Shown: one piece after another, positions 5,210 to 7,407 of the stretch
Position numbering within the stretch: position 1 is the first letter of the stretch
How the letters are laid out: every line of letters starts with the position of its first letter
Source of the DNA: Chamaesiphon sp. 336R_metabinner_41
Lineage (GTDB): Bacteria; Cyanobacteriota; Cyanobacteriia; Cyanobacteriales; Chamaesiphonaceae
Length of the DNA: 38,733 nt
Direction: 5' to 3'
Assembly: GCA_025359915.1 (NCBI GenBank)
Contig: JANYDE010000058.1
Span: 1-38,733, forward strand
Notes under the pieces: model-generated
Databases searched by the model: none
What the model was told of the DNA's origin: nothing
The model's input: only the letters and a program-made list of their open reading frames with translations
Translations under genes and position numbers: made by a program

Positions 5210-5347
5210 ATGACTCAACACCTCACACCTGAAGTCCGCCAAATTATCGAGCGGGTGCTCCAACTGGAAAAAGACAGGCTCGATCGCAAGAAGAATTCGC
5301 CAATTAATGATGATATCCTTAAAATCATCAAAGAAATTGTCGTATGA
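5210..5347 (+). CDS. 45-residue protein coupled to the SMC-like ATPase
   Basis: A short frame starting MTQHLTPEVRQ and ending IIKEIVV. It is charged, predicted mostly helical, with a central ERVLQLEKDRLDRKK stretch. The stop TGA overlaps the ATG of the next gene as ATGA, which argues that this is a translated leader gene and that the two proteins are made together. No obvious Shine-Dalgarno sequence is present (GGCTCCGTAAAATG). I do not recognise a named family. Likely a small partner or regulator of the ATPase, inferred from coupling only. Confidence 0.6.
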   Translation: MTQHLTPEVRQIIERVLQLEKDRLDRKKNSPINDDILKIIKEIVV

Positions 5348-7407
5348 AGTTGACCACAATTCGCCTCTACAACTTCCGTCAATTTTATGGTGAGACTCCT
5401 GAGATTCATATTGCTACGGATGACGATCGCAATACTACCATCATTCATGGGAATAATGGCGCAGGTAAAACTAGTATTCTCAATGCGTTTACGTGGGTAC
5501 TTTACGAAAAATTTACCGCTGCTTTTGCCGAGTCTCAGCAATTAGTCAATAAACGCGCGATTGCGGAAGCTGATATCGGTACAGCGATTGATAGTTGGGT
5601 TGAAGTCGCCTGGGATCACGATGGGAAGCGTTATCGTGCTAAACGAATGTGTCGCGCCTATAAGCAGGAAACTGGCGTTAATCTTGTCAATAATGAATTG
5701 CTGTATCTCTACATCGGCGATGCTGATGGTAAATGGCTGCATCCTCAACAACCGCCGGATGAAATTATCGGCAGAATTTTACCTGCGAGTTTGCATCAAT
5801 ATTTCTTTTTTGATGGCGAAAGGATCGAGCAAATTGTGCGTCAGGATAAAAGATTAGAAATCGCTGAAGCTACGAAAATATTGCTTGGGGTGGAAGTCTT
5901 AAATCGATCGATAAAACATCTTGCTGAAGCTAAAAAGACGTTAGAAAACGAACTCGCGCAGATTGGCGATACAACTACGAAGGATTTACTTAGATCCCAA
6001 CAGCAGTGTCAACAAGAGATCGATCGAATCGAACAACGTCAAGCTGAAATAATCCAAGAAATTGCTAACTTTAAACAGATTGAACAAGAGATCGATCGAT
6101 ATCTACTCGAACTTACAGCCGCTAAAGCTACTCAATTACAACGACAAGAATTAGAACGAACTAAAGCTACCCATCAAACCCAGCTTCGTCAGGCTCAGAC
6201 GGCGATTAAGCAATTAATTTCGACTCAAGCGCATACAGTTTTACTGGCAGATCTAACTAAAGACTTCCAAACAATTGTAGCTGAATTACGCGATCGAGGT
6301 GAACTAAATCAAGGTATCTCCCGCGAATTCCTCAGTCAACTCCTCCACCATCAGAATTGTCTGTGCGGCACGAAATTGAGTCCTAAGACTGCCGCCTATA
6401 TCCAAGTCCAAAACTGGCTGTCTCGTGCCAGTATTGCAGTGATTGAAGAGACAACCATGCGGCTGATTACCCAAGTTGAAGATCTCGAAACTAAAGGGGC
6501 TGACTTCTGGAAATCGATCGATCTTCAGCAGCAAATAGTCAGTACGGCTAGAGCTGAGATTAGTCAGTTAGAGCTAAAAATAGACAATCTCGAATTGCAG
6601 CTTCGTCAAGATACGAATGTTGAGATTAGTAGTCTCCAAAAACGTCTCGATGATATCGAAGTAAAAGTTCGTGATTTAACTCTCAGTCAAGGACAGAATA
6701 AACAGCAAATTATCCATCTCGAAGGACAAATTCAATCACTAGCGAAACAAATTGCTAAACAACAAACAAATTTAGATAGACAAAACCTCGCCCATCGTCG
6801 GCTCCAAGCAGCGACGACAGCAATAGCCGAATTAACCACCATTCGCCATCAACAAGAACAACAATTTCGGCTCGATCTCGAACAGCGTGTCCAGCAGATT
6901 TTTCAAACAATTTCAGTTACGCCATATCTACCAAAGATCACCGAAAAGTACGAACTAATGTTAGTCGAAAATACTAGAGGTGTGGAAACTACTGTCGCCG
7001 CATCTACAGGTGAAAATCAGATTCTCAGTCTGTCATTTATTGGCGGTATTATCGATCGAGTCCGCACCTGGAGCGAACAAAAATTGCTCGCAGTTCCAGA
7101 AAGCAATACCTTCCCGATCGTGATGGATTCACCGTTTGGCAGTCTCGATCGAATCTCCCGTCGTCAAATCGCCCAAATCTTACCCCAATTAGCAAATCAG
7201 CTCGTAGTCCTCGTGACCAAAACGCAATGGCGGGACGAAGTAGAAACCGAAATGCAGCCAAAGATTGGCAGACAATATCTCTTAACTTACTATACGTCTA
7301 AATTAGATTGTCCTGAAGATTACCTAGATATTAATAATCAGCGTTATCCCTTAATTAAGCATAGTCCCAATGACTTCGACTATACCGAAATCATCGAAAT
7401 AACATAA
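5344..7407 (+). CDS. SMC/Rad50-like AAA ATPase resembling DndD
   Basis: A 687-residue protein with the split-ATPase layout of Rad50, RecF and DndD. The N-terminal head (FRQFYGETPEI, Walker A GNNGAGKT at 36-43) is followed by a long coiled coil from about 190 to 540, rich in Gln, Glu and Leu. The coil is interrupted at 339-342 by a CxCG zinc-hook-like motif (CLCG). The C-terminal head has an ABC-signature region near LSLSFIGGIID and Walker B/D-loop VMDSPFGSLD with Asp595. The FFFDGERIE and KILLGVEVL motifs are those of DndD-type proteins of phosphorothioate DNA modification. No dndB, dndC or dndE gene is present, so a DndD function is not shown; DNA repair or phage defence are alternatives. 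It follows the 45-residue gene by ATGA overlap and precedes birA by 4 bases. Confidence 0.85.
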   Translation: MKLTTIRLYNFRQFYGETPEIHIATDDDRNTTIIHGNNGAGKTSILNAFTWVLYEKFTAAFAESQQLVNKRAIAEADIGTAIDSWVEVAWDHDGKRYRAKRMCRAYKQETGVNLVNNELLYLYIGDADGKWLHPQQPPDEIIGRILPASLHQYFFFDGERIEQIVRQDKRLEIAEATKILLGVEVLNRSIKHLAEAKKTLENELAQIGDTTTKDLLRSQQQCQQEIDRIEQRQAEIIQEIANFKQIEQEIDRYLLELTAAKATQLQRQELERTKATHQTQLRQAQTAIKQLISTQAHTVLLADLTKDFQTIVAELRDRGELNQGISREFLSQLLHHQNCLCGTKLSPKTAAYIQVQNWLSRASIAVIEETTMRLITQVEDLETKGADFWKSIDLQQQIVSTARAEISQLELKIDNLELQLRQDTNVEISSLQKRLDDIEVKVRDLTLSQGQNKQQIIHLEGQIQSLAKQIAKQQTNLDRQNLAHRRLQAATTAIAELTTIRHQQEQQFRLDLEQRVQQIFQTISVTPYLPKITEKYELMLVENTRGVETTVAASTGENQILSLSFIGGIIDRVRTWSEQKLLAVPESNTFPIVMDSPFGSLDRISRRQIAQILPQLANQLVVLVTKTQWRDEVETEMQPKIGRQYLLTYYTSKLDCPEDYLDINNQRYPLIKHSPNDFDYTEIIEIT

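Follow-up and report, generated by a model that had tools for sequence, protein, structure and literature searches.

A 45-codon open reading frame (ORF) and the gene of a DndD-like ATPase overlap at positions 5210 to 7407 of a 38,733-nucleotide stretch of Chamaesiphon sp. 336R_metabinner_41 DNA (GenBank assembly GCA_025359915.1, contig JANYDE010000058.1; the whole stretch is called the window here), and the question raised by this locus is to what system, if any, such a pair belongs. The initial annotation suggested that it could be an undescribed repair or anti-phage unit, present without other dnd genes. Our analysis indicates that the two genes are probably the pbeB and pbeC members of a Dnd–Pbe phosphorothioate (PT) system that is complete but has its genes scattered. 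In our reading this system is vertically inherited, has had its operon broken up and reads PT marks. The pair is not undescribed, since it corresponds to PbeB–PbeC of the known PbeABCD system (PMC6459918), the equivalent of the CxC ATP-binding cassette (ABC) ATPase–DndE systems of PMC10853773. The view of the small ORF as partner of a DndD-like ATPase, with an anti-phage ancestry, is well founded.

The pbeB–pbeC gene pair

The two ORFs, their ATGA junction and the Walker A and CxCG motifs claimed for the ATPase were all located at the positions given below.

5210..5347, + strand: pbeB, the small ORF, 45 amino acids (aa) (from the ORF list)
5344..7407, + strand: pbeC, the ABC ATPase, 687 aa (from the ORF list)
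5344..5347, + strand: ATGA, overlap of the pbeB stop and the pbeC start (from the sequence)
5449..5472, + strand: Walker A codons, GNNGAGKT, PbeC residues 36-43 (from the sequence)
6358..6369, + strand: zinc-hook codons, CLCG (CxCG), PbeC residues 339-342 (from the sequence)
7126..7149, + strand: Walker B / D-loop codons, DSPFGSLD, PbeC residues 595-602 (from the sequence)

Judged by its sequence, the ATPase is PbeC, a CxC-type sister of DndD with a predicted coiled coil and a zinc-hook motif. It matches the PADLOC PbeC model PDLC02753 with 974 bits over residues 1-649; the score against the NCBIfam DndD model (TIGR03185) is 145.9 bits, under the curated cut-off of 245.85. The Pfam match is AAA_23, the NCBIfam matches to Rad50 and SbcC are far under the family cut-offs, and the best matches in the PDB are to Rad50 (E 1.4e-4).

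Canonical PbeC counts exclude five distant proteins of a second type (the second PbeC of G266 and of G314, and those of G271, G121 and G222), and upstream ORFs were read in genomes other than those with PbeC fragments (G256, G185, G246, G360, G247, G015 and G182). The 4-nt overlap with pbeB, which would couple translation of the two genes, recurs in 79 of the resulting 88 canonical pbeC genes (86 genomes). The Walker A motif is found in 87 of the 88 proteins, and the same count holds for CxCG and for DSPFGxL; PbeC of G351 is without the first 44 profile positions, Walker A included. A homologue of the small protein is encoded no more than 400 nt upstream of 83 of the 88 genes, as judged with a profile to which some of these genomes contributed.

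The small ORF is thus real and conserved, as had been suggested, and selection acts on it. In ungapped comparisons of the window with six close relatives (five titled Chamaesiphon and one titled 'uncultured cyanobacterium') the ratio of nonsynonymous to synonymous divergence (dN/dS) is 0-0.13 for the 45-codon gene and 0.035-0.06 for the ATPase gene, at high dS values that reach 1.3 and 1.8, respectively. Both genes are under purifying selection. The six relatives have the 45 codons with an identical ATG start, just upstream of which there are stop codons or unconserved sequence, and their loci keep the block of a 153-aa unassigned ORF, the small ORF, the ATPase and birA (a seventh relative locus, L008, starts within the ATPase gene). 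Scanning for promoters and terminators gave sites no more numerous than in shuffled sequences.

The remaining Dnd–Pbe genes of the genome

The window lies on contig C72 of a 4.2-Mb genome in 169 contigs (G000). The claim that the ATPase occurs without other dnd genes fails at the level of this genome, where DndC, DndD, DndE, PbeA and PbeD are encoded on five other contigs, one on each.

G000:C73: PbeA, superfamily 2 (SF2) helicase, TIGR04095, 638 bits, over cut-off, 504 aa
G000:C62: PbeD, TIGR04062, 173 bits, over cut-off
G000:C57: DndC, 678 bits, over cut-off
G000:C131: DndD, 627 bits, over cut-off
G000:C14: DndE, 128 bits, over cut-off
G000:C57, L178:3976-4935, - strand: HNH nuclease candidate, on the same strand as dndC

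None of the PbeA, PbeD, DndC, DndD and DndE genes contains an internal stop. Proteins that match TIGR04095 also match the PADLOC PbeA model. The four Pbe genes of this genome therefore stand at three places and not in one cassette. The related claim that no modification or nuclease gene is near holds for the scanned ORFs of the window and not for the genome as a whole.

Co-inheritance and scattering

The order of the window, which we take to be the GTDB order Cyanobacteriales, is the one meant below by 'the order'; NCBI places Chamaesiphon in the Gomontiellales. The 388 genomes of the class include 96 with PbeC, 94 with PbeA, 93 with PbeD, of which 91 exceed the cut-off, and 79 with DndC, of which 77 do. 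PbeA occurs in 93 of the 96 genomes with PbeC and in 1 of the 292 without it, and PbeC accompanies dndC in 71 of the 77 genomes with an over-cut-off dndC; the dndC counts leave out two weak matches below the cut-off (G017 and G270). The 62 genomes of the order include 52 with PbeC (51 canonical), 52 with DndD and 52 with DndE, which are not all the same genomes. All seven genes (PbeA, PbeB, PbeC, PbeD, dndC, dndD and dndE) are present in 48 of the 52 PbeC genomes. PbeC is absent from the other ten genomes of the order, seven of which lack all seven genes.

Genes no more than 15 kb apart were counted as linked, that is, as one place. The 48 complete sets then occupy one place in 11 genomes, two in 12, three in 5, four in 4, five in 9, six in 6 and seven in 1, with at least two places in 37 of the 48. 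Since contig ends may inflate the number of places in draft genomes, single-contig cases were counted separately. In eleven genomes (G022, G184, G266, G348, G150, G327, G157, G300, G323, G351 and G387) the genes share one contig and yet occupy four to seven places, PbeC and PbeA being 129 kb or more apart; hence the scattering is not an artefact of contig boundaries. The PbeA matches of G150 and G372 end short at the C-terminus. Of 41 genomes from other orders, 39 have PbeA and PbeC no more than 5.5 kb apart, and the remaining two, G213 and G256, have PbeC at a contig end.

All trees were quick ones, without bootstrap. The PbeC proteins of the order form one clade (50 rows, SH-aLRT branch support 99). 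Mapped on this tree, the break between PbeA and PbeC requires ten changes, seven of them forced by well-supported branches; the count covers the 50 rows of the order and 9 of the 38 rows from other orders, and does not distinguish breaks from rejoinings. Because the layout outside the order is clustered, these results suggest that the scattering is a derived state that arose repeatedly, and not a 'primitive form', one of the alternatives considered in PMC8569181.

Some individual genomes deserve mention. The second type of PbeC (132-152 bits; G266, G271, G314, G121 and G222) has an upstream ORF of its own of 54-78 aa; these ORFs do not match the PbeB profile. In G314, G121 and G222 the second-type gene has a PbeA gene next to it and a DndC gene at a distance of up to about 5 kb. 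PbeC of G185 is in two pieces (profile positions 1-429 and 429-647) about 1.3 kb apart, and is apparently interrupted (G185:C1:3821712-3824921). The 3.8-Mb single-contig genome G143, of the same order, keeps only PbeA (682 bits, C1:979015-980361); PbeB, PbeC, PbeD, DndC, DndD and DndE were unmatched there in profile searches. G231:C26 has DndC, DndD and DndE within 7 kb together with an HNH relative, with Pbe proteins unmatched, and so represents a solitary PT module within the order.

Linkages that survive

Linkages in the 48 complete sets number 45 for PbeB–PbeC, 34 for DndC–DndD, 28 for DndD–DndE, 26 for PbeC–PbeD and 17 for PbeA–PbeC; for the 20 sets that occupy at least four places the corresponding numbers are 17, 7, 4, 0 and 3. 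PbeB–PbeC is the best-surviving linkage in the scattered sets. Even where the two genes have separated, PbeB is retained, for example 1.6 kb from PbeC in G205 and 0.8 kb in G305. According to PMC10853773, linkage of CxC ATPases to a DndE is universal. Provided that PbeD is the DndE meant there, this rule does not hold in the order, given the PbeC–PbeD linkage in 26 of the 48 sets and in none of the 20 scattered ones.

The small protein PbeB

The 45-aa PbeB probably consists of two helices. A low-depth AlphaFold2 model, built on seven near-identical rows and so to be taken as a hint, places them at residues 7-27 and 32-44 with a mean predicted local distance difference test (pLDDT) score of 74. 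The protein is a short form of its family and does not have the 'EPI' stretch with which most other PbeBs of cyanobacteria are endowed at the N-terminus. Conservation of the ORF next to orthologous ATPases, the check that the initial annotation had proposed, was examined in 80 genomes: all 67 that have canonical PbeC gave a PbeB homologue, and the 13 without it gave none, using a profile built in part from the searched genomes, one row of which is the window protein itself (match in its own genome, E 1.9e-20). The refuting outcome named in that annotation, a small ORF not conserved beside the ATPase, was thus not seen. Mean column identity within the cyanobacteria is 58% (20 chosen rows).

Applied to haloarchaeal PbeB, the PbeB profile scores 35 bits for Natrinema and 24 bits for Halorhabdus, against a best score of 11 among 2000 shuffles. 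Of 25 plasmid records obtained by tblastn, 11 were opened and ten were annotated around the match. The small gene stands directly before the ATPase gene in nine of these ten, and in the remaining one the two are separated by a transposase gene. Among ten small ORFs from plasmids, that of the cyanobacterium Pseudanabaena and four haloarchaeal ones exceed all 2000 shuffles; those of Ruegeria, Pontibrevibacter, Lactiplantibacillus, Rhizobium and Haloprofundus do not, and are called PbeB by position. The Ruegeria plasmid has the uninterrupted order PbeA-PbeB-PbeC-PbeD, and the Pseudanabaena plasmid the same order with four intervening genes after PbeC. In Halorhabdus, a transposase gene stands between the helicase (unscored) and PbeB, and the protein after PbeC matches TIGR04062 below cut-off.

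Loss of the PbeA nuclease domain

The PLD/HKD N-terminal nuclease domain is absent from PbeA of G000 and from all 53 canonical PbeA proteins of the order, and for this reason we speak of a variant of PbeABCD. Outside the order, 244-310 residues precede the helicase in 37 of 42 PbeA proteins, as against at most 82 residues in 53 of 53 within it. The HxK…D/E/N motif is found in all 39 full-length PbeA proteins (the 37 just mentioned and two second copies in the order). Traces of the nuclease domain remain in four of the five short proteins outside the order, and the fifth is truncated by the end of its contig. Near the 53 PbeA genes of the order, a profile of the HKD domain detected nothing (for G116, in less than 200 bases of upstream sequence). 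Searched across whole genomes at E 0.001, it had no match in 33 of the 52 PbeC genomes of the order; the remaining 19 have matches in second PbeA copies (G198 and G314) or at other places, such as the 76-bit match of G000, in a 735-codon frame on C50. The PbeC tree suggests a single loss of the domain; the quick PbeA tree has no placed root and omits four short fragments.

We considered the idea that this loss is unique to the order, and rejected it, as 3 of 11 plasmid systems (Halorhabdus, Natrinema and Lactiplantibacillus) are also without the HKD domain. PbeA of the Pseudanabaena plasmid (L039:1993-3423, NZ_CP112875.1) is annotated with 476 aa, and its frame is open for 240 codons further with an HKD domain; the annotated start is probably in error.

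Interpretation and alternatives

PbeABCD was described from haloarchaea (Haloterrigena jeotgali), where, as reported in PMC6459918, pbeB, pbeC and pbeD are indispensable and pbeA is partly required for protection, which is PT-dependent; cleavage of virus DNA is reported there as not seen. By analogy with these experiments, PT dependence and a block of replication may be expected here too. DndC, DndD and DndE, with a presumed cysteine desulfurase, would place sulfur in the DNA backbone and so mark self DNA. PbeC, an ATP-driven coiled-coil ABC ATPase with a zinc hook, would clamp and scan DNA with PbeD, the second of two DndE-like DNA-binding proteins, as its DNA-reading partner. PbeB may be a small constitutive and obligate subunit of PbeC, co-made by translational coupling, while PbeA, a helicase or translocase without its nuclease domain, would move along or remodel unmarked DNA. 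The outcome would be that replication of unmarked DNA is blocked rather than that the DNA is cut. The present role in cyanobacteria can only be inferred.

Several points weigh against this picture. TIGR04062 is taken as PbeD from its place after PbeC, and in PADLOC both PbeD and PbeB were unmatched; DndB was not found in G000. Contact between PbeB and PbeC is proposed from gene linkage; in G022 and G184, however, PbeB has PbeA and not PbeC as its neighbour, and in G351 it is 45 kb away from PbeC. An AlphaFold2 model of PbeC from seven close relatives failed, with a mean pLDDT of 42.6. The tested archaeal PbeA has the PLD/HKD domain that is absent here, so that the activity may differ from that of the archaeal system, and our literature search found no experiment on cyanobacterial Pbe. 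Finally, the HNH candidate directly upstream of dndC in G000 matches the PT-DNA-binding family NF045808 (139 bits, cut-off 180), which we take to be the SBD-HNH/SprMcrA type, and its presence makes a reading of 'no cutting' unsafe. On account of this gene we rejected the idea of a wholly nuclease-free system, even though the gene scores below the family cut-off. Relatives of it occur in 19 of 50 dndC regions of the order (in G252 as a stretch of just 74 residues) and in 23 of 61 regions overall.

That the ATPase is instead a stand-alone repair protein of the Rad50/SbcC or DndD type, with the small ORF as an incidental neighbour, is very improbable. The Rad50 matches in the PDB and the Rad50 and SbcC matches in NCBIfam are what would be expected of it, but the latter are far below their cut-offs next to 974 bits for PbeC, the small-ORF family is conserved and strictly co-occurs with canonical PbeC, and the co-occurrence of PbeA, PbeB, PbeD and Dnd proteins with the ATPase contradicts it. 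It also seems unlikely that PbeB acts on the PbeA nuclease, restraining it as a negative regulator or trigger, instead of being a structural or activating subunit of PbeC. Such a restraint is the model put forward in PMC10853773, where the small protein is described as rapidly evolving and mostly disordered, and the adjacency of PbeB to PbeA in G022 and G184 would suit it. In cyanobacteria, by contrast, PbeB is well conserved, at the column identity given above, and is linked to PbeC in 45 of the 48 sets and to PbeA in 19; deletion of pbeB is reported to have abolished protection in the archaeal system (PMC6459918). Because PbeB persists in 51 of 51 canonical-PbeC genomes of the order whose PbeA is without a nuclease domain, it is unlikely to be a leash on that nuclease. 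The resistant PbeB–PbeC linkage points rather to a physical complex.

A rival of greater weight, which we rate as a serious possibility falling short of even, is that the Dnd–Pbe set has been domesticated: it would no longer restrict invaders and would maintain the host chromosome, scanning it, for example, for stalled forks, for oxidised sites or for places where the PT mark is missing. Such a role would account for genes that are near-fixed, single-copy, scattered among core genes and without the PbeA nuclease. In its favor are the retention of seven genes in 48 of 52 PbeC genomes even though 37 of the 48 have at least two places, the absence of the nuclease domain in 53 of 53 PbeA proteins, the low dN/dS of PbeB and PbeC, near-fixation in the order, the housekeeping genes among the neighbours of the pair, PbeA, DndD, DndE and PbeD, and the vertical inheritance of dnd genes in Cyanobacteriales reported in PMC8569181. 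On the other hand, vertical inheritance is compatible with defence, and the set is dispensable, since PbeC is missing from 10 of 62 genomes and all seven genes from seven of these, which fits defence, as does the patchy PT-reading nuclease candidate by dndC in 19 of 50 genomes.

Returning to the Dnd–Pbe system as we read it, we tentatively propose a history for the Cyanobacteriales whose probability we place only a little under even: an ancestral operonic Dnd–Pbe defence lost the PbeA nuclease, became fixed and was repeatedly split into up to seven loci with nearly all of its genes retained, giving a domesticated, dispersed core-genome machine that reads and maintains PT, with PbeB–PbeC as the last unit to split and the hardest to separate. 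If this is true, PT modification in cyanobacteria is not 'solitary'. Previous work on the cyanobacterial dnd genes reports 'various configurations', operon 'disorder', a missing PT restriction component and, in Nostocales, absence of the dndFGH cluster, and its argument for an antioxidant origin is built partly on the missing component (PMC8569181); the word Pbe occurs 0 times in the text of that paper. In several cyanobacteria dndC-D-E are reported to be still clustered (PMC2442094). The PbeB–PbeC pair itself was known already. As far as the searched literature shows, the scattering, co-retention and nuclease-domain loss of the Pbe genes in the order are new; most subscription papers and all supplementary tables were outside our reach, and cyanobacterial PbeAC may well be listed in the tables of PMC6459918. 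Defence systems are usually found by clustering, and a scattered system is therefore scored as lone genes, as happened in the initial annotation. The genes named here make the role of PT in cyanobacteria directly testable, and they show the break-up of an operon in graded stages, which one linkage, PbeB–PbeC, withstands.

Genomic surroundings

Near the pair in the window are genes for SecA (upstream), a GNAT protein, an unassigned ORF, BirA (directly after the pair) and an M23 peptidase. A Pfam scan of the 24 other ORFs of the window, from which three antisense frames of 132-136 aa were left out, gave housekeeping or unassigned proteins. Ten of the 24 were also run in PADLOC, where the sole hits were cross-matches, one of an ABC-F-type protein and one of a histidine kinase.

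Elsewhere in the genome, AcsF and a tRNA-Ser precede PbeA; the latter, a tRNA-Ser(TGA) at L042:1196-1282, is directly before the gene. DndD is flanked by alanine dehydrogenase and ArgB, DndE is beside IPP isomerase, PbeD is flanked by a sodium/solute symporter and a radical-SAM-like protein, and TilS is found beyond DndC. Two candidate defence or mobile nuclease genes stand beside DndC. A 246-aa protein two genes from dndC (L178:5129-5866, + strand, G000:C57) strongly matches PADLOC PDC-S02 (305 bits) and PD_DExK.

Comparison with known systems

With Rad50/SbcC and the structural maintenance of chromosomes (SMC) proteins, PbeC shares the Walker A/B head, a long predicted coiled coil and hook-like cysteines, but the matches are weak, and PbeC has a CxCG hook and co-occurs with Pbe and Dnd genes. 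It resembles DndD of DndABCDE in being an ABC ATPase with a coiled coil and in its weak, 146-bit match to the DndD model; it differs in falling below that cut-off and in its CxCG hook, and the true DndD (627 bits) is encoded elsewhere in the genome. The PT-DNA-binding HNH restriction enzymes are represented by the 139-bit match upstream of dndC in G000, which is a patchy accessory and not part of the pbeB–pbeC pair. The closest counterpart is PbeABCD. In contrast to the archaeal system, the cyanobacterial genes are scattered on the chromosome, PbeA is without the PLD/HKD domain, PbeB has 45 rather than 66 residues (PMC6459918), and inheritance is apparently vertical, with the system in 52 of the 62 genomes of the order. 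The components are the same (helicase PbeA, small PbeB, CxC ATPase PbeC and DndE-like PbeD, with DndCDE), and where the cyanobacterial genes cluster they do so in the order A-B-C-D.

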